From Campylobacter canadensis (lineage in GTDB: Bacteria > Campylobacterota > Campylobacteria > Campylobacterales > Campylobacteraceae), in assembly GCF_013177655.1 (NCBI RefSeq), contig NZ_CP035946.1, forward strand, positions 1,302,001 to 1,366,000: DNA of 64,000 nucleotides, given 5' to 3'. The position numbers and the translations under genes were made by a program. The notes beneath the pieces were generated by a model. It had not been told where the DNA came from. It worked only from the letters and a program-made list of their open reading frames with translations, and searched no databases. Below, in pieces: positions 13,128 to 54,973 of this stretch. Each line of letters begins with the position of its first letter. The stretch's first letter is position 1.

Positions 13128-14426
13128 TTATTTATTTTCTTCTTTGTTGTAAAAATCTTTAATTTTTTTATTGATTGTGTCTTTATTTTTTGTAATAGTT
13201 GAGTTTTCCTTACGCTCATTACCTTCGTTATGAAGATAACTTAACCAATTAAAACTACCATTTATTATAAAATCATTGTCACAAATTATAAATTTTTCAT
13301 GAGAATTGTCTTTGTAAGTCTTAAAATTTGCATAATTATTTTTTAATTCAATAAATACCTCTTCAGCTTTTTTATCAATTATTGCCTTATTATCACGCTT
13401 ACTTTTATTTTCTATTCCATATTTTATATGAATATTCACCTTTCTTGATAGGGCAGATTTAATATAATCTAAGTATTCATTTAAAACTTGAAATCTAATC
13501 CAAGGAGATTGTATGTATATATCATTTTTAGCATTTTCTAATATATATTTAAAATATTTTTTATGTGAGCATTCATCTATTATTTGCCCATCTTTAATAT
13601 CTAATGTAAAAGTATAATTTTCAAATCTATTAGAATTATCTTTCGTAGCTTGATTTTCCTTTACTTTAAAATCTTCTTTTTCTAATAATTTATCAAACAA
13701 TCTTGAAATACCTTCATCAGCAACAATATCCTCACTAGCTATATTTAATGCTACTATTTTCTTTTCATTAATACTATTTTTATAAAAACAACATAAATGT
13801 TTTTTATAAAACATTGATATTTTACTAAGGTCTTTAACACTATAAAGCTTTAAAGTTTCATTATTTTCAAAATTTTGTATATTTTCAAAAATGACTTGTT
13901 TTAATGTTTTATCATCTTTATAAATATTATTTAAACAATTATTATCAGGTCTTAATGTATTGTTACGCTTTAATTCAATTGCATCTTTATCAACCTTATG
14001 TTCTAATCTAATATCACTTTGAGAAAGCTCTATAATATCTGCACTAATTGCATCAAAAATTACACAAAACTCTTTTTCTACCATTTTAGTACTTTTAATA
14101 TTATTTAAATAGTCTTTTGCTTTTTTACTTAAGTTTAAGTTATTATCTAAATAAGCTTTAAATATAAGCTCTGATATTATGGTATTTAATACATCTTTAT
14201 CAAGACAAGTAATTTTTTCTATAGTGCTAATTTTACTTTTTGTAGTGTCTATTAATCTTAATATAAATACTTCTATTTGTGTTAATTGTTCGTCTTCTTT
14301 AAAAATACAATTTACTATACATTTATATACTGGATAAAACACATATTTAATATCATATAACTCGTAATTATTATCTTCTCCAAAATAAGTAAATTTATGT
14401 TGTATTAAGTTAAAATTAAGCTTCAT
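13128..14426 (-). CDS. PLD-superfamily nuclease, MkoB-like component of a Mokosh system
   Basis: A 432-residue protein. Its C-terminal third holds one phospholipase D active-site motif, HEKFIICDNDFIINGSFNW (about 385-403), with the expected H-x-K, D and GS-N residues. A conserved strand IYIQSPWIRF lies about 80 residues earlier. One HKD motif per chain implies a dimeric nuclease. The upstream gene is a COG1112-type SF1 helicase, overlapping by 11 bases, preceded by a kinase-like part. That trio matches the Mokosh type I anti-phage system (kinase plus helicase MkoA, PLD MkoB). The N-terminal two-thirds contains no domain I recognise. It appears intact, unlike its partner. Confidence 0.75.
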   Translation of the reverse strand: MKLNFNLIQHKFTYFGEDNNYELYDIKYVFYPVYKCIVNCIFKEDEQLTQIEVFILRLIDTTKSKISTIEKITCLDKDVLNTIISELIFKAYLDNNLNLSKKAKDYLNNIKSTKMVEKEFCVIFDAISADIIELSQSDIRLEHKVDKDAIELKRNNTLRPDNNCLNNIYKDDKTLKQVIFENIQNFENNETLKLYSVKDLSKISMFYKKHLCCFYKNSINEKKIVALNIASEDIVADEGISRLFDKLLEKEDFKVKENQATKDNSNRFENYTFTLDIKDGQIIDECSHKKYFKYILENAKNDIYIQSPWIRFQVLNEYLDYIKSALSRKVNIHIKYGIENKSKRDNKAIIDKKAEEVFIELKNNYANFKTYKDNSHEKFIICDNDFIINGSFNWLSYLHNEGNERKENSTITKNKDTINKKIKDFYNKEENK

Positions 14427-16479
14427 TTATTTCTCCTAAATTTCTAACTTCATATTCGCTTTTGTTTTTATATATATATTCAATTATTTCTTTAAATGGA
14501 TTAAAACCATTATTTGTACAAGATTTATATAAAAAATCAATATCACCAACTATTAAAAGTAATTTTTTTGCTCTTGATAAGGATACATTTAATCTTTTTT
14601 CATCAGCTATAAAATCAATTTTACTCTTTTTACCACCACCTGCTCTTACACAATCATAAAAAATAATATCTCTATCACTTCCTTGAAAACTATCAACCGT
14701 TCCTATATCAATTTGAATATCATCTTGTTTATATTTTTGAACAATATCTTTTAAATAATTATCTAAATAATATTTTTGGTCTTTATAGGGGGTTATAATT
14801 CCGATACTTAAGTTATTATTTTTACAATAATTTTGTAGAGTATTTAACTCTTGTTTAATAATCTTTGCATTACAACGATTAATCTTACCTGTTCCTTTTT
14901 GTTCATCAGCCCTATCTTTTAAATTACCTGTATTTAACCACACTAAATTTGCAATATAACAATCAATATTATGCTGTTTTAGCTCATTTATCTCATCTTT
15001 TGTTTTTAAGTCTCCTTCATAAAAAACATTGCTATATATATTGCAAATACTTTTATGCGCTCTGTAGTTATAAGTTAGCATATGTTTTAAGTTATTAAAT
15101 TTTGTATTAGAATTAAATAATTGCTCAAACAATGATGTAATAACTTCTTTTTTAGAATAACTTTCTAAATTATTAGCAATATCATCATCAATTATTGGTG
15201 CAAGTTGCTTATGGTCTCCTACAAATATAATCTTTTTTGCCTTAATACAAGGAACTAAAAGCTCACTTAAGGTAGCTCTTCCTGCTTCATCTACGATTAC
15301 TAAATCAAATACAATTTCTCTAAAATTATTCCATGATGAAATTCCTATAAGTGTTCCAAAAATTATTTTAATATTTTTAATAAAAAACATTTCCACATCT
15401 GTATTTTTAACACTTTTTGAAGTAATACTTTGTAATATTTCTTTAAATTCATCTTGATTTTTCTTAAATTCTTGTATTTCATTCTCTTGTAAATCTTTAA
15501 TATTTTTACTAACTATGGTGTTTATTATTTTATTTGGAGTATATTTTCTTGCAATTTCGCTCATTTTACTTTCATCGTTACCTATTCGCAAAATTTTTTG
15601 TTCTTCTTCACAAATTTTTTCTAACACATTATCTACTGCTTGATTACTTTGAGATGTAATTAGCATTTTATAACTTGGGTGCAACTTTAAATATTGTTTT
15701 ATTATTTCTACTATTGTTGTTGTTTTTCCAGTACCAGGAGGACCTTGAATTAGTAATATTTCACTTCCATCTTGCAAACTTAATGCTTTTTTCACTGCTA
15801 ATTGTTGATTTTCATCTAAATTTTTATTAAAAAATTCGTCTATTTTAATTAAATTATTTTCAGTAAAATTTAAATTAGGTTCGCATAATTTACTAGCTAA
15901 ATTATTAATATATACGTTACTTTTTTTAAGTTCATCAAGCGCTCTTTCTTTTTTCTTAAATACTATTTCTTCTGCTTGATAATCATAATTAATACTATAT
16001 TTAATTAAAATCTCATTCTTGTCATATTGCTTTAAATTTATTTTTGAATATTCATCTTCGATATTAACATAAAGTAATGATTTTGTACTTACAAACTTAT
16101 CAACCACGCCCTTTAATTCATCATCATCTTGTGTATAATTTAATTTCTTTATTATTACTTTATGATTTTGCTTAAAATGTCTATTTGCATTCTCAATTAC
16201 AAAACAAAGCTGATTATTTTTAGTATTACTAATGGTTCCTATTTGGCTTAATTTTTTACTTTGAATGTAATCATTTTCAGCCTTTAGTAAATCTTCTTCC
16301 ATCTTTATTGATTTTTCACTATAAAGTATTGCATTATCATCACTACTTGAGTGTTGTTTTATCTCTTTAAGTAGTTCATCTATACTTTTACAATCAAAAT
16401 TATTATTTTTATTATTTACTTCAAGTAAAAATTCTATATTATCTTTAAATAATCCATTTTTATAAATTTTATCTAGCAA
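14416..16479 (-). CDS. SF1 (UPF1-like) helicase, C-terminal part of a Mokosh MkoA-like gene
   Basis: The 687-residue frame has the SF1 helicase motifs: GPPGTGKTTT (about 246-255), VDEAGRA (about 394-400), GDHKQLAPI, TYNYRAH, a Q-SVGTVD-type GTVDSFQGSD block and a VSLSRAK terminal motif. It belongs to the COG1112/UPF1-like class used in Mokosh. No strong ribosome binding site precedes the first ATG. The reading frame extends upstream without a stop for about 30 codons (LRDYVFLCSEKKS region) to near 16570, and there it meets the kinase-like frame. I therefore read it as the 3' part of one long gene interrupted at about 16582. An independent helicase started at 16479 is possible. Confidence 0.82.
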   Translation of the reverse strand: MLDKIYKNGLFKDNIEFLLEVNNKNNNFDCKSIDELLKEIKQHSSSDDNAILYSEKSIKMEEDLLKAENDYIQSKKLSQIGTISNTKNNQLCFVIENANRHFKQNHKVIIKKLNYTQDDDELKGVVDKFVSTKSLLYVNIEDEYSKINLKQYDKNEILIKYSINYDYQAEEIVFKKKERALDELKKSNVYINNLASKLCEPNLNFTENNLIKIDEFFNKNLDENQQLAVKKALSLQDGSEILLIQGPPGTGKTTTIVEIIKQYLKLHPSYKMLITSQSNQAVDNVLEKICEEEQKILRIGNDESKMSEIARKYTPNKIINTIVSKNIKDLQENEIQEFKKNQDEFKEILQSITSKSVKNTDVEMFFIKNIKIIFGTLIGISSWNNFREIVFDLVIVDEAGRATLSELLVPCIKAKKIIFVGDHKQLAPIIDDDIANNLESYSKKEVITSLFEQLFNSNTKFNNLKHMLTYNYRAHKSICNIYSNVFYEGDLKTKDEINELKQHNIDCYIANLVWLNTGNLKDRADEQKGTGKINRCNAKIIKQELNTLQNYCKNNNLSIGIITPYKDQKYYLDNYLKDIVQKYKQDDIQIDIGTVDSFQGSDRDIIFYDCVRAGGGKKSKIDFIADEKRLNVSLSRAKKLLLIVGDIDFLYKSCTNNGFNPFKEIIEYIYKNKSEYEVRNLGEINEA

Positions 16480-16565
16480 AATTTCATTATCACAATGTAT
16501 AGCAAAACATTCAAAACGTCTTTTTGATTTTTTTTCACTACATAAAAATACATAATCTCTTAAAG

Positions 16566-17310
16566 CTATATATATATTGTCTTTTCATTGTTTTTATTAT
16601 TTTCTAATAAAAAATATGCGTTGTTAGCATTAATATATTTGTTTAATTCTAGTCTTAACTCAAACTCATTTTTTATGTTTTCAGTATCAATAAATTCTTT
16701 ATAATTTTTAATTGCTGATGGAAAAAGATTTATTTCGTATTTGGATATATTTTTTACTAAAGAATTTAAAAGATGCTCTTTAATTGAAATTAAATCATCA
16801 AAGTTATCCAAATTATCATTTTTAAAGGCAGGAAAATATCTTTTATAAATTGTTTTAAAAACTTCTATATTACTCTTACAATCTTTATCACCAAAAAAAA
16901 AATGAACATAAATAATCCAACAAAAGCTTGCCATTGCTATCAATAATTTTATCAGGCAAACAACCATTTAATCCTAGTTTTTCAAGCTCTATAAACAAAT
17001 CTAAAATTTTAAATAAATTTTCTTTTATATATGATGATATAGGCAAAAAACAACTAAAATAACTGCGTATATCTGTAGATGTTTCATAATCTTTTGTAAT
17101 AAAATAATATTTATTTTTATCTTCTATAAATTCACATTTCATTAAATTATCATATTGAATATTACATAATTTAGGAGCTAATTCACTTATATAAGTATTA
17201 TTTTCATCCTTATTTAAAATATATGCCTTAAATCTTTTTTTATTTTTTTCAAGCATTAAAATATTATCTTGTTTATCAACTATTTTATAAGTAAAAAAAT
17301 TATCATCCAT
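16566..17310 (-). pseudogene. Kinase-like N-terminal part of the MkoA-like gene, frameshifted twice
   Basis: Two frames form one protein. Residues 1-140 (17310-16888) read as a degenerate kinase with an ending LPDKII.SNGKLLLDYL resembling the catalytic loop and DFG-like strand. After a run of ten T (16893-16902 on the plus strand as A10) the frame is lost. With nine T it continues as LDYLCSFFFGDKDCKSN... for about 110 more residues. A second break near the A4/TA-repeat region at about 16570-16585 separates this from the helicase; one extra A gives NEKDNIYIALRDYVF and rejoins it. The intact gene would encode roughly 960 residues. The T10 could be a phase switch. The second break looks fixed or is a read error. 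Kinase residues are poorly conserved, so it may be a pseudokinase. Confidence 0.65.
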
Positions 17311-17404
17311 TAAAGTCCCTTAAGTCTTATTTTATAATCTGGTATATAAAAGAAAGTTGTAGTTTTATTGTAAAGCTAGTATAAAACCAGCTTTACAATA
17401 AAGA

Positions 17405-17536
17405 TTACTTTTTATTGTTTGGGTTTAATTGAGCGCCACGATTTCCGTGAACTTGAGAATGTGCTTTATTTTGTCCAGCACTACCTTTGTTTGCATTTGC
17501 TTGATTAGCTTTATGGTTTGCATTTGCTTTATCCAT
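17405..17536 (-). CDS. Small Asn/Lys/Gln-rich hydrophilic protein
   Basis: The 43-codon frame begins MDKANANHKANQANANK and ends GNRGAQLNPNNKK. The ATG at 17536 is preceded by a strong GGAG site. The composition is very rich in Asn, Ala, Lys and Gln with no hydrophobic stretch, so the protein is soluble and probably disordered. I recall similar short proteins in Campylobacter genomes without known function. It stands alone between the Mokosh-like genes and the CRISPR region. Its promoter carries a G9 tract directly upstream of the -10 box, which suggests on/off or graded expression. Confidence 0.7.
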   Translation of the reverse strand: MDKANANHKANQANANKGSAGQNKAHSQVHGNRGAQLNPNNKK

Positions 17537-17565
17537 CTTTTACTCCTTTCTTTATATTTCATATC

Positions 17566-17580
17566 ATTATACCCCCCCCC
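17566..17580 (-). promoter_or_regulatory. Promoter with a G9 tract abutting the -10 box
   Basis: On the minus strand nine G (17580-17572) run directly into TATAAT (17571-17566), about 30 bases before the start of the 43-residue protein. The tract lies in the spacer between -35 and -10, so changes in G number would alter spacing and promoter strength. Poly-G tracts of eight or more are typical hypermutable sites in Campylobacter. Sequence-based inference. Confidence 0.6.
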
Positions 17581-17952
17581 ACGGTTAATAAAGACACAGT
17601 ATTAATAAAAAAAATTAAATTTTTTTACAATATTAATCCTTATTCGTATTTGTTTTTTGTTACTAACTTTCAAAGCTATATATAAAAGTAATAAAATGTT
17701 AAAAACTCTTATCTAAGGTAAGTTGCCTAATTTTTTAATTATTTATAAATATAAAAATTAATAAATGTGCTAATAATATTAGAAACTAAAAAATAAGTGT
17801 GGTGATTTTGCTTATAACTTTTTATCATATTTATTACTTTTTATATTTTAATAGAAGGCATATTAAGCTTTTAAAAACTTTAAATAAATAATTCTTTTAA
17901 TAACATCATTTAAATAGCTTTAAGAAAATATTATATCCCAAATGTAACAGGA
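17581..17952. other. AT-rich spacer before CRISPR array 1
   Basis: This stretch of about 370 bases holds no gene I can support. It lies beyond the distal (leader-far) end of array 1, so it is not the leader. No inverted repeat or conserved motif stood out. Confidence 0.5.
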
Positions 17953-18271
17953 ACCTTAATCCCCTAAAGCGGGGCAATCTTCTTAAACAAGGGGAGTGGA
18001 TAATAAAGGACACACGCCGTGCGGTTTCAATCCCCTAAAGCGGGGCAATCTTCTTAAACAGCAATACCATGAAGAATTTAAGCCTGATTACAAGTTTCAA
18101 TCCCCTAAAGCGGGGCAATCTTCTTAAACAATGAGGTTAGTTTTAATATGAAAGCCTTATGGGTTTCAATCCCCTAAAGCGGGGCAATCTTCTTAAACTT
18201 CATCGCCACACAATACGCCGTTGAGGCAGGTAAAAGTTTCAATCCCCTAAAGCGGGGCAATCTTCTTAAAC
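17953..18271 (-). CRISPR. CRISPR array 1 (five repeats, four spacers)
   Basis: Repeats of 36 bases lie at 17953-17988, 18024-18059, 18094-18129, 18163-18198 and 18236-18271, with spacers of 35, 34, 33 and 37 bases. Read on the minus strand the repeat begins GTTTAAGAAGATTGCCCCGC and ends GGGGATTGAAAC, so transcription runs toward lower coordinates and crRNA carries the ATTGAAAC 5' handle usual for type I and III systems. The repeat at 17953 is degenerate at the ATTGAAAC end, marking the distal, oldest end. The leader is the inverted repeat starting at 18272. The repeat is the same as in array 2. Confidence 0.97.
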
Positions 18272-18749
18272 CCATTATTTTTAACAATGTTAAGTAAAAT
18301 AACTCATAAAAAAGATATTATAATTATTTTTAATTAATCTGTAAAATAATATTTTAAGATTTAATAAAAACAAATATTAGCAAATGCTAAGGAAATTAAA
18401 AAATATAAGCTTTAAATATCTATTTTGCTATTAAGAATTTTAATTTTTTAATCATTTGCTTGTTTTAAGATTATTTTAATATTAAAAAGTGTTATTTATT
18501 AATACTTTTATAAATACAAAAAGCAAAAAAGTAGCAAATGTAAATATTAAATTATAATAATTAGCAAAATTCACTTTGTTTTAGCTTAAATTCAGCATAA
18601 ATTAAGCTTAAAAGGTGGTAAATGCAAATATGTAAATCTTAAATATGTTAATATAAAAGTATTTTTTATTGTTTTAAAAAGTTGTAAAAGGGATAAAATG
18701 CAAGAAAATTATCAACAATCATTACAAAAATTACAAAAGCAAAAAAGCT
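18236..18749 (+). repeat. Left arm of a 514-bp inverted repeat (CRISPR repeat, leader, cas1 5' end)
   Basis: This segment and 20045-20558 are reverse complements with, by my count, four mismatches in 514 bases. The arm contains the leader-proximal repeat of array 1, the whole 426-base AT-rich leader/promoter region and the first 17 codons of cas1. Homology stops within codon 18 of cas1 (18749). The region therefore has two outward roles: leader for the array on one side and promoter for cas1 on the other. The ribosome binding site AAAAGGGAT lies before the cas1 ATG. Confidence 0.95.
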
Positions 18750-19699
18750 TAAAAGAAGTTTTACATATTAGCAAAGCTGGTCTTAGCTTGAGCAAAGAGC
18801 AAGAATTTTTTTGTGTAAAAAATAGCAAAGAAACTGTTAGTAAAATCCATGCAAATAAATTAAAATCTATAATTATTAATGTAAATATTACTTTAAATTC
18901 TGAAGTGCTATTTTTAGCTAAGAAGTATAAAATAGCTGTGCTTTTTGTAAATAAAGAGCTTGAAAGTATAAATATATATACAAGCTCAACAAGTTCTAAA
19001 ACTTTTTTAGCACAAGCAAAACTTAGCGATGAAAAAAGATTAAGCCTTGCTAAAAGTATAATAATTGCAAAATGCAAAAACCAGCTTAATTATATAAAAA
19101 GAATGAATAAATACCATAAAAAATACGATGAAAACATACTTAAAATGATGAAAATAATTATTAAACTTAAAAAAGCTAAAAATAATCAAGAAATTTTAGC
19201 TTATGAAGGCGGTGTGGCTTTATGGTATTATGAATGTTTGTGCGATAGATTTAATAAATATAACTTTAAAAAAAGATATAAAAAAGGTGCAAAAGATGTA
19301 GTAAATATGAGCTTAAACTATCTTTATGGCATACTTTATAATAAAATACTAAAACTTATTATTGATAATGGTTTAAGCCCTTATGTGGGATTATTACATG
19401 CTAATAATGATAAAAATATTAGTTTTGTATTTGATGTAATAGAAGAATATAGGACTTATGTGGTAGATTTTGTGGTGTTTGGGTGGTTTTCGTATAATCC
19501 TAACGTTAATGATAAAGACGAGCTTAGCAAGGAATTAAAAGAAAAATTATGTAAAAGATTTAACGCAAGATTACTTGATAAACTCTCTTATAAAAATCAA
19601 AAAATCAGCATAGAAAATATCATAACATTGCAAATTCAAGCACTTAAAAAAGCTATTTTAAACGATGATAAGTACAAAGGGTTTTGCCCAAGATTGTAA
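18698..19699 (+). CDS. cas1: CRISPR-associated integrase Cas1
   Basis: A 333-residue Cas1 with an N-terminal beta domain and a C-terminal helical catalytic domain. The metal ligands are visible: the glutamate in AYEGGVALWYYE (about 168), the histidine in GLLHANNDKNISF (about 232), and the acidic pair in FDVIEEYR (about 246-250). With Cas2 it inserts new spacers next to the leader. The start is ATG 18698, inside the inverted repeat. It converges on cas2: the stop at 19699 abuts the cas2 stop at 19700. The arrangement, with cas1 and cas2 on opposite strands, is unusual because they normally form one operon. Full length and motifs suggest activity. Confidence 0.95.
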   Translation: MQENYQQSLQKLQKQKSLKEVLHISKAGLSLSKEQEFFCVKNSKETVSKIHANKLKSIIINVNITLNSEVLFLAKKYKIAVLFVNKELESINIYTSSTSSKTFLAQAKLSDEKRLSLAKSIIIAKCKNQLNYIKRMNKYHKKYDENILKMMKIIIKLKKAKNNQEILAYEGGVALWYYECLCDRFNKYNFKKRYKKGAKDVVNMSLNYLYGILYNKILKLIIDNGLSPYVGLLHANNDKNISFVFDVIEEYRTYVVDFVVFGWFSYNPNVNDKDELSKELKEKLCKRFNARLLDKLSYKNQKISIENIITLQIQALKKAILNDDKYKGFCPRL

Positions 19700-19963
19700 C
19701 TAAATATAATTTGTACTAATTGGATTTGTGCCTATTGTTATGGTGTTTAAGTAAGTTTTTGTAGGTATTTTGTAGATTTTTATTGTGTCTGTTTTTGGGT
19801 TTATTAATAAATTTAATTTTATTATAAGCGAGTTTAGTTTGCACTCTTTTAAATCCAATTCAAATACACTTAAATTTACCTTTTCTCCTTGAGTAATAAG
19901 GGTATCGTGAATTATTTTTCTAGTTTTATTAGATGTAATATCATAACAAATAATATACGGCAT
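19700..19963 (-). CDS. cas2: CRISPR-associated protein Cas2
   Basis: An 87-residue Cas2 with the ferredoxin-like first strand and aspartate in IICYDITSNKTRKII, followed by FELDLKEC and the KIYKIP strand. It bridges the Cas1 dimers in the spacer-integration complex. AAAGGAG lies 5 bases before the ATG. It is on the minus strand, tail to tail with cas1. The only promoter-like region upstream is the right arm of the inverted repeat, a copy of the cas1 promoter region, so cas2 is probably transcribed from a duplicated cas1 promoter through a 21-codon cas1 remnant. Confidence 0.92.
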   Translation of the reverse strand: MPYIICYDITSNKTRKIIHDTLITQGEKVNLSVFELDLKECKLNSLIIKLNLLINPKTDTIKIYKIPTKTYLNTITIGTNPISTNYI

Positions 19964-53378: not shown

Positions 53379-54973
53379 CAAGTTTAATAGAAGATATCGC
53401 CAATAAAGTTTATAACAACCCTTACCTAAAATCATTGTTGTGTATACTAGAAAAAGACTATGTAAATAACTTAAGCCAAATAGATAAAAAATGGTCTTTA
53501 AACAATAAACAATATAAAGATTTAATAAGATTTATAGATATTTTATCTAGATCTAAAACACCAAAGAATAAAAATTTAACTATAAAAATAATCAGTTTAT
53601 TGATTGATTTTCCAATAATCAATGATGATTTTTTTAAACTACTTATTGTAAACAGCTTTGTAAAACTAGGAAATTTTCCATCATTACAAATTTTAGATAA
53701 TTTTCAAGATTGTTTTTATTTTAGAGAATTAAGAGAAGACTACAATATTAAAAACATAACCAACCAATCGCCATTAAAACATATATTTACAGATAGTCAA
53801 AAACAATTATTTGATGAATTAATAAAATCGAATCATTATAGTTTTTCTAGCAACACTTCTTTCGGAAAAACTTTTGTATTGACGGCTTTTATTAAATATA
53901 TTATAGAAAATAAGAAAAATGAAAATAATGAAGACAATATAGCTCTAATGGTTCCAACCAAAGCACTAATTCATCAATTATTCAAAAGTATAAATGAAAT
54001 TTTAAAAGATTTTCCAAATAATTACAAAGCAATAATATCACCTAAAATTCCGAAATATTTCTTAAATAATAAAAATAATTATATTTTTATATTTACACCA
54101 GAAAGACTAATATCATTTTTTGCAGAAAACAATAACCCACCAATAAAATATCTTTTTGTTGATGAAGCACATAAACTATTAAGCAATAATGACACAAGGT
54201 CGGTTTTAATATATCATGCGATTACAATGGCAAATTCAAAAGATATTAAAATTTATTTTTCATCTCCAAATATTCACAACGCTGATATTTTTTTAAAAAT
54301 TATAAATAAAAATCAAAATTTTAATAAGTATATTGAAGAATCTCCTGTAACTCAAAATAAATTCTTTATAGACACCACAACAAATGATAGTTATATGCTT
54401 TCTGATTTTCAAGAAAATATAAAAATTGATAATTTACATTTTAAACACGGCAGCAACCCCATTCAAAATCTTTATGACTTAATAAACTTCATATCTTTTA
54501 AAAATTCACAAAGTATTGTGTATTGTAATACCCCAAGAAATGCCATGGAATATTCTACAAAATATGCAGAATTATTAAGCAATATAAAAAACGAAGAAAT
54601 TCAAGAAACCATAACATTTATAGAAAGAAATATACATAAATCATACTTTTTAATCCAATGTTTAAAAAAAGGTATAGCATATTATTTTGGTAATATGCCA
54701 GAAGAGTTAAAAATTCAAATTGAATATCTATATAACAAAGGGGTTATAAATTTATTATTTTGTACTTCAACGCTATTGGAAGGTGTAAATTTACCCGTCA
54801 AAAATATCTTTATTTTAAATGAAAAAATAGGTAGAAGAAGATTTCAAAAAATTGATTTTTGGAACCTAGCTGGTAGAGCTGGTAGACTAGGCAAAGAATT
54901 AAGTGGTAATATATTTTGTGTAAGACTAGATAAAAAATATTGGGGGGGGGGAAAAATGCTAAAGAACTATTAA
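53375..54973 (+). CDS. hamB: Hachiman helicase HamB, N-terminal frame
   Basis: The 532-residue frame has SF2 helicase motifs: SSNTSFGKTFVLTAF (about 158), a MVPTKALIHQL motif, VDEAHKLL (about 263), SIVYCNTPRNA, a CTSTLLEGVNLP motif and NLAGRAGRLGKE (about 490). After KKYW the frame enters a run of ten G (54942-54951) and stops 7 codons later at 54973. The normal HamB C-terminal region continues in another frame. The gene is thus in an OFF or truncated state. G8 or G11 would restore the reading frame. Poly-G tracts of this length vary at high frequency in Campylobacter. Confidence 0.9.
   Translation: MTSLIEDIANKVYNNPYLKSLLCILEKDYVNNLSQIDKKWSLNNKQYKDLIRFIDILSRSKTPKNKNLTIKIISLLIDFPIINDDFFKLLIVNSFVKLGNFPSLQILDNFQDCFYFRELREDYNIKNITNQSPLKHIFTDSQKQLFDELIKSNHYSFSSNTSFGKTFVLTAFIKYIIENKKNENNEDNIALMVPTKALIHQLFKSINEILKDFPNNYKAIISPKIPKYFLNNKNNYIFIFTPERLISFFAENNNPPIKYLFVDEAHKLLSNNDTRSVLIYHAITMANSKDIKIYFSSPNIHNADIFLKIINKNQNFNKYIEESPVTQNKFFIDTTTNDSYMLSDFQENIKIDNLHFKHGSNPIQNLYDLINFISFKNSQSIVYCNTPRNAMEYSTKYAELLSNIKNEEIQETITFIERNIHKSYFLIQCLKKGIAYYFGNMPEELKIQIEYLYNKGVINLLFCTSTLLEGVNLPVKNIFILNEKIGRRRFQKIDFWNLAGRAGRLGKELSGNIFCVRLDKKYWGGGKMLKNY
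54942..54951 (+). repeat. G10 contingency tract in hamB
   Basis: Ten consecutive G in an AT-rich gene, between codons for KKYW and the helicase C-terminal region. Intact reading needs 2+3n G, i.e. eight or eleven. Confidence 0.9.

Follow-up and report, generated by a model that had tools for sequence, protein, structure and literature searches.

A G9 tract between the promoter elements of a conserved small gene in Campylobacter canadensis as a candidate slippage-controlled spacer

The window analyzed here comprises 64,000 nucleotides of the Campylobacter canadensis genome and carries, on its minus strand, a gene of 43 codons at positions 17405 to 17536, with the ATG at 17536 and the stop codon ending at 17405. 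Read from the sequence, the minus strand runs in the order ...TTTATTAACCGT-GGGGGGGGG-TATAAT-GATATGAAATATAAAGAAAGGAGTAAAAG-ATG, in which the -10 box is an exact consensus hexamer (17566 to 17571, minus strand) directly abutted by nine G (17572 to 17580, minus strand), precisely as the preliminary description had stated. This promoter core lies 35 nt upstream of the start codon, and a good Shine-Dalgarno sequence, AAGGAG (17543 to 17548, minus strand), is located 6 nt upstream of it. Beyond the tract, on the side away from TATAAT, lies a TTAA box (17585 to 17588, minus strand) at -8 from the tract, matching the TTWA box common to poly-G promoters of the genus. Just 3' of the stop codon, a 17-bp hairpin (17364 to 17402, minus strand; -21.6 kcal/mol, z = -7.5) with a weak U tail is a possible terminator. 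Since the Shine-Dalgarno sequence and ATG are close to the promoter and a strong hairpin follows the stop codon, the small gene looks like a self-contained single-gene unit of ~200 nt. Nine consecutive G go beyond chance expectation because the window has a G+C content of only 26.5%; it contains just two runs of nine or more G, and about 58 were counted in the whole genome. The second run of the window (G10, 54942 to 54951, plus strand) lies within long reading frames or where they begin and is probably a coding phase-variable tract.

The tract had been assigned to a -35/-10 spacer, which is correct insofar as this slippable homopolymer (eight or more residues) lies between two core elements, the upstream TTAA box and the TATAAT box. 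However, no E. coli-type -35 box is present at this promoter, which is why it was missing from the listing of a sigma70 scan with the standard -35/-10 arrangement. For C. jejuni, sigma70 promoters have been described as having a periodic T-rich pattern without a clear -35 box (PMC3656092), and an alternative description gives a loose TTTAAG-type -35 (PMC3824568). The small-gene promoter agrees with the Campylobacter sigma70 type in its exact TATAAT and its TTAA box in register, with one of the two usual upstream boxes absent. The absent element is the upper box, TTWAG near -19, which is found in most sibling promoters; its absence counts against a switch function.

The genes next to the small gene belong to defence systems. 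A CRISPR repeat array and cas1 adjoin it (17955 to 18275 and 18698 to 19963), with cas2 likely in the same locus, and a Mokosh-like pair is located at 13128 to 17319 on the minus strand (MkoA helicase part, E 4e-152; MkoB-like protein, E 2e-50). The first gene of this pair is broken into three frames, with the breaks falling exactly at a T10 run (16893 to 16902) and an (AT)5 repeat (about 16568 to 16577); the pair may have decayed, or it may be phase variable and at present off. A link between the small gene and these neighbors was considered and dropped, as relatives of the gene are located elsewhere, some beside a nitroreductase-like gene and others between rpmA and obgE, and the hairpin separates the small gene from its next neighbor.

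The encoded protein (MDKANANHKANQANANKGSAGQNKAHSQVHGNRGAQLNPNNKK) has an 81% identical counterpart at a different location in another species of the genus (genome G001, locus L010). The two genes differ by 13 synonymous and 8 non-synonymous codons, and the differences are distributed over the three codon positions as 6/2/17. With an 81% identical protein elsewhere in the genus and this third-position excess, the 43-aa frame is, on comparative grounds, a real coding sequence. Its family, characterized by an invariant core of N-x-NKG-x-x-G-x-N and GNRG-x-Q, was found in 26 of 397 Campylobacterota genomes from 14 genera, and the window protein carries the N-x-NKG and GNRG-x-Q core within the 42 to 52 aa range of the family. 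Records from a plasmid collection added members from Vibrio, Klebsiella, Treponema, Arcobacter, and Neisseria, the scans of named genomes and of viral contigs returned one distant relative each, and a phage collection held no relative. Searches of Pfam, NCBIfam, PHROGs, and PADLOC gave no match above the family cut-offs, and a single-sequence fold predicted two helices at low confidence (pTM 0.31). The preliminary description gave the protein no function, which still stands; however, the protein is not an orphan but a member of a conserved, widely scattered and undescribed family.

The settings of the relatives are diverse. On a Klebsiella plasmid, the family gene lies between blaGES-24 and blaOXA-921, an arrangement that looks like an integron cassette. 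A HicA toxin gene adjoins the family gene in four loci (L137, L140, L144, and L155), and this adjacency may be taken as a lead to the function of the small protein. In several Helicobacter-like loci, the neighbors are an XRE regulator and a DUF4156 lipoprotein. A palindrome, ACTCTATTATAATAGAGT, covers the -10 box of the Helicobacter-like homologues L138, L146, L148, and L154, most of which are adjoined by the XRE regulator, and this combination suggests operator control. Based on the integron-like, HicA-adjoining, and XRE-adjoining settings, the small gene appears as a mobile-looking gene scattered over Campylobacterota and beyond.

The promoter arrangement itself recurs in the genus. Seven or more G directly touching TATAAT occur at 22 sites in four genus genomes (4 to 6 sites in each) compared to a single site for the reversed control, and at 130 sites against 23 in 153 genomes of the host's taxonomic family, where they are found in 5 of 12 genera. 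The G9-TATAAT arrangement is thus far beyond chance. When the hexamer was relaxed to four or more matches, ten sites of the own genome were followed by a start codon 35 to 74 nt downstream, nine of them at 35 to 47 nt. Among the genes downstream of these sites are those for a GntP permease, a URO-D family protein, a protein with a bacterial PH domain, a PAP2 phosphatase-like protein, a PEP-mutase-like enzyme, and, behind promoters with G8 and G9, a related pair of proteins with signal-like N-termini. Throughout the genus, the layout consists of a TTWA box, 4 nt, G8 to G11, TATAAT, and then a Shine-Dalgarno sequence and ATG, with a second box, TTWAG, near -19 that resembles the loose TTTAAG-type -35 described earlier (PMC3824568). 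A model built without the small-gene promoter placed it at the 99.1th percentile, and at the 99.8th among GC-matched sequences. A dozen or more further genes of the genus are under promoters of this design. Two further arrangements were observed. In L121 (about 720 to 800), a run of C10 precedes AAT-TATAAT and has TTTAAG boxes on its upstream side, which gives a similar layout with C replacing G. In G001 (L010, about 1670 to 1760), the promoter of the small gene is accompanied, at a distance of about 80 bp, by a second poly-G run of divergent orientation, with TTTAAG and TTAAG boxes at the corresponding places.

In 14 of 19 non-redundant genus promoters, the TTWA box begins exactly at -8 from the tract (binomial P about 3e-16 at a background of 4% per position; the background was taken from the whole window, which makes this P too extreme for intergenic DNA rich in A and T). 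All six checked members with 8, 10, or 11 G (L045, L056, L058, L064, L065, and L115) have the box at -8. It is held there whatever the tract length, and therefore the number of G alone sets the distance between box and -10, which amounts to 16, 17, 18, and 19 nt for G8, G9, G10, and G11, respectively. That a change in G number alters the spacing, as had been proposed, is borne out to this extent: both here and in the siblings, the box is tied to the 5' end of the tract and the -10 to its 3' end. In ordinary promoters of the own genome, the box is most frequent at -16 and -15 (10 and 9 occurrences versus a mean of 3.2), where the reference consists of 39 predicted rather than mapped promoters, since exact TATAAT yielded only 10 and near matches were added.

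Differences in tract length were found at other loci. Seven repeat pairs in the own genome, identical over 60 nt to either side of the tract, have a different number of G (for example, 8 vs 9, 10 vs 11, 9 vs 10, and 10 vs 8), from which it follows that such tracts slip in this genome, although assembly error may account for the length differences in these repeats. Orthologous promoters also vary across species, with 9/9/8 G for the GntP permease, 10/9/9 for the PH-domain protein, and 9/10 for a 136-aa protein. A second strain of the source species for comparison of the small-gene tract was not found in the named-genome and viral-contig scans. Separately, a repeat cluster with about twenty poly-G tracts lies at about 316000 to 370000 of the own genome (L104 to L110), where the GT-rich strands have no long reading frames and the tracts differ in length between identical flanks.

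Taken together, we consider it probable (roughly 70%) that the small gene is transcribed from a sigma70 promoter with a slippable poly-G spacer, whose length would raise or lower transcription; both the start site and the effect on expression are deduced from the layout. RNA polymerase would need TATAAT together with an upstream TTWA box that is correctly spaced from it and on the proper face, and most of this spacing is taken up by the tract. If replication slippage added or removed a G at the small-gene tract, the box would shift with respect to the -10, and the single-gene unit would be transcribed more or less strongly. With the box at -16 for G8, -17 for G9, and -18 for G10, and at -16/-15 in ordinary promoters, shorter tracts are predicted to be stronger: G7 to G8 would give the stronger promoter, G9 an intermediate one, and G10 or more a weak one. 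Slippage of the G run thus probably tunes or switches expression of the small gene.

The gene has repeatedly been found with such a tract. Within the host's taxonomic family, it occurs in 4 of 153 genomes with five copies, including a decayed paralogue in the own genome, and four of these five have G8 to G10 next to a -10-like sequence (G9 in the window, G10 in G001, G10 in G126, and G8 in the decayed paralogue). The fifth copy (L152, genome G129) has no tract, which counts against the switch, and in the homologues examined outside the family no poly-G was seen upstream of the gene. In G126 and G129, the gene occupies the same place, between rpmA and obgE; with a tract in one and none in the other, the gene has kept its position under a changed promoter type. 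Shared descent may account for the tract in both orthologues of the window's genus. The preliminary description also counted the gene among those whose variation is useful, a presumed benefit that becomes likelier given the tract on four of five copies. A further point against the switch is that the G001 and G126 homologues have three extra bases (AGG, AGA) between tract and TATAAT, by which the distance from box to -10 exceeds the supposed optimum.

This tolerance of three extra bases would fit an unlikely alternative, in which the tract is a passive spacer: the promoter works and the run slips at times, but expression barely changes and the perfect -10 alone decides, in keeping with the main reliance of Campylobacter promoters on the -10 (PMC3656092, PMC3824568). 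However, the constant -8 position of the box in promoters of unrelated genes suggests that spacing matters, and upstream A/T changes coincide with the loss of some C. jejuni promoters (PMC3656092). We regard it as still less probable that the tract acts otherwise than by spacing, through a regulator reading the G run or through DNA structure, so that many genes would be controlled together. While the occurrence of the tract in many promoters of otherwise unlike genes speaks for this, the tract precedes the expected start and therefore lies outside the mRNA, an intramolecular quadruplex cannot arise from a single G run, and only T-boxes were seen as a motif common to the promoters. Finally, a frame switch of a plus-strand reading frame (17429 to 17605, 58 codons), inside which the tract lies as C9, is highly improbable in view of its TTG start, the early stop closing the corresponding frame in the orthologous DNA of G001, and the third-position excess of the minus-strand gene.

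Promoter tracts of Campylobacter are usually left aside, as their effect cannot be read from sequence, and a 2026 study of C. jejuni omitted intergenic tracts because their effects were expected to be context-dependent and quantitative (PMC13317227). The fixed layout and measurable distance of the poly-G spacer promoters permit a prediction of the "on" tract lengths and provide a list of genes to test. If true, stochastic switching in these bacteria would reach beyond surface structures to transporters, enzymes, and a mobile small-protein gene. A broader proposal, which we put forward tentatively and at somewhat less than even odds, is that a stereotyped class of promoters (TTWAG-N6-TTWA-N4-G8..11-TATAAT) independently tunes many metabolic and envelope genes of the genus, and that a mobile one-gene small-protein unit, which other Campylobacterota apparently keep under operator control, has repeatedly come under a stochastic promoter of this type.

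By analogy, the small-gene promoter is best read as transcriptional phase variation of the porA/TP0126 kind; the mechanism itself is already known from these systems, and new here is the unusual kind of gene under it. In Neisseria meningitidis, porA (poly-G) and fetA/opc (poly-C) likewise have an unstable homopolymer between promoter core elements, whose length sets transcription (PMC2791445, PMC7864442). However, the Neisseria promoters have a -35 box beyond the tract and serve surface-protein genes, whereas the present promoter has a TTWA box, serves a small hydrophilic protein, and is known from sequence alone. In Treponema pallidum, TP0126, tprE/G/J, and tprL have a promoter G tract of 7 to 11, mostly 9, as here, and for the tpr genes fewer G means higher activity (PMC7864442). 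These are putative surface-protein genes of another phylum with mapped starts and reporters, in contrast to our sequence-based case. Closest in bacterial clade and tract type are the catalogue of intergenic poly-G tracts in Campylobacter (PhasomeIt, PMC6321876) and the promoter tracts of Helicobacter canadensis (PMC2823697). Campylobacter tract lengths peak at 9 to 10 (PMC6321876), and about three quarters of the catalogued Campylobacter tracts lie inside genes. The lists give the tract and the nearest gene, and in the portions of these sources considered neither the fixed layout of box, tract, and TATAAT nor the small-protein gene is described.
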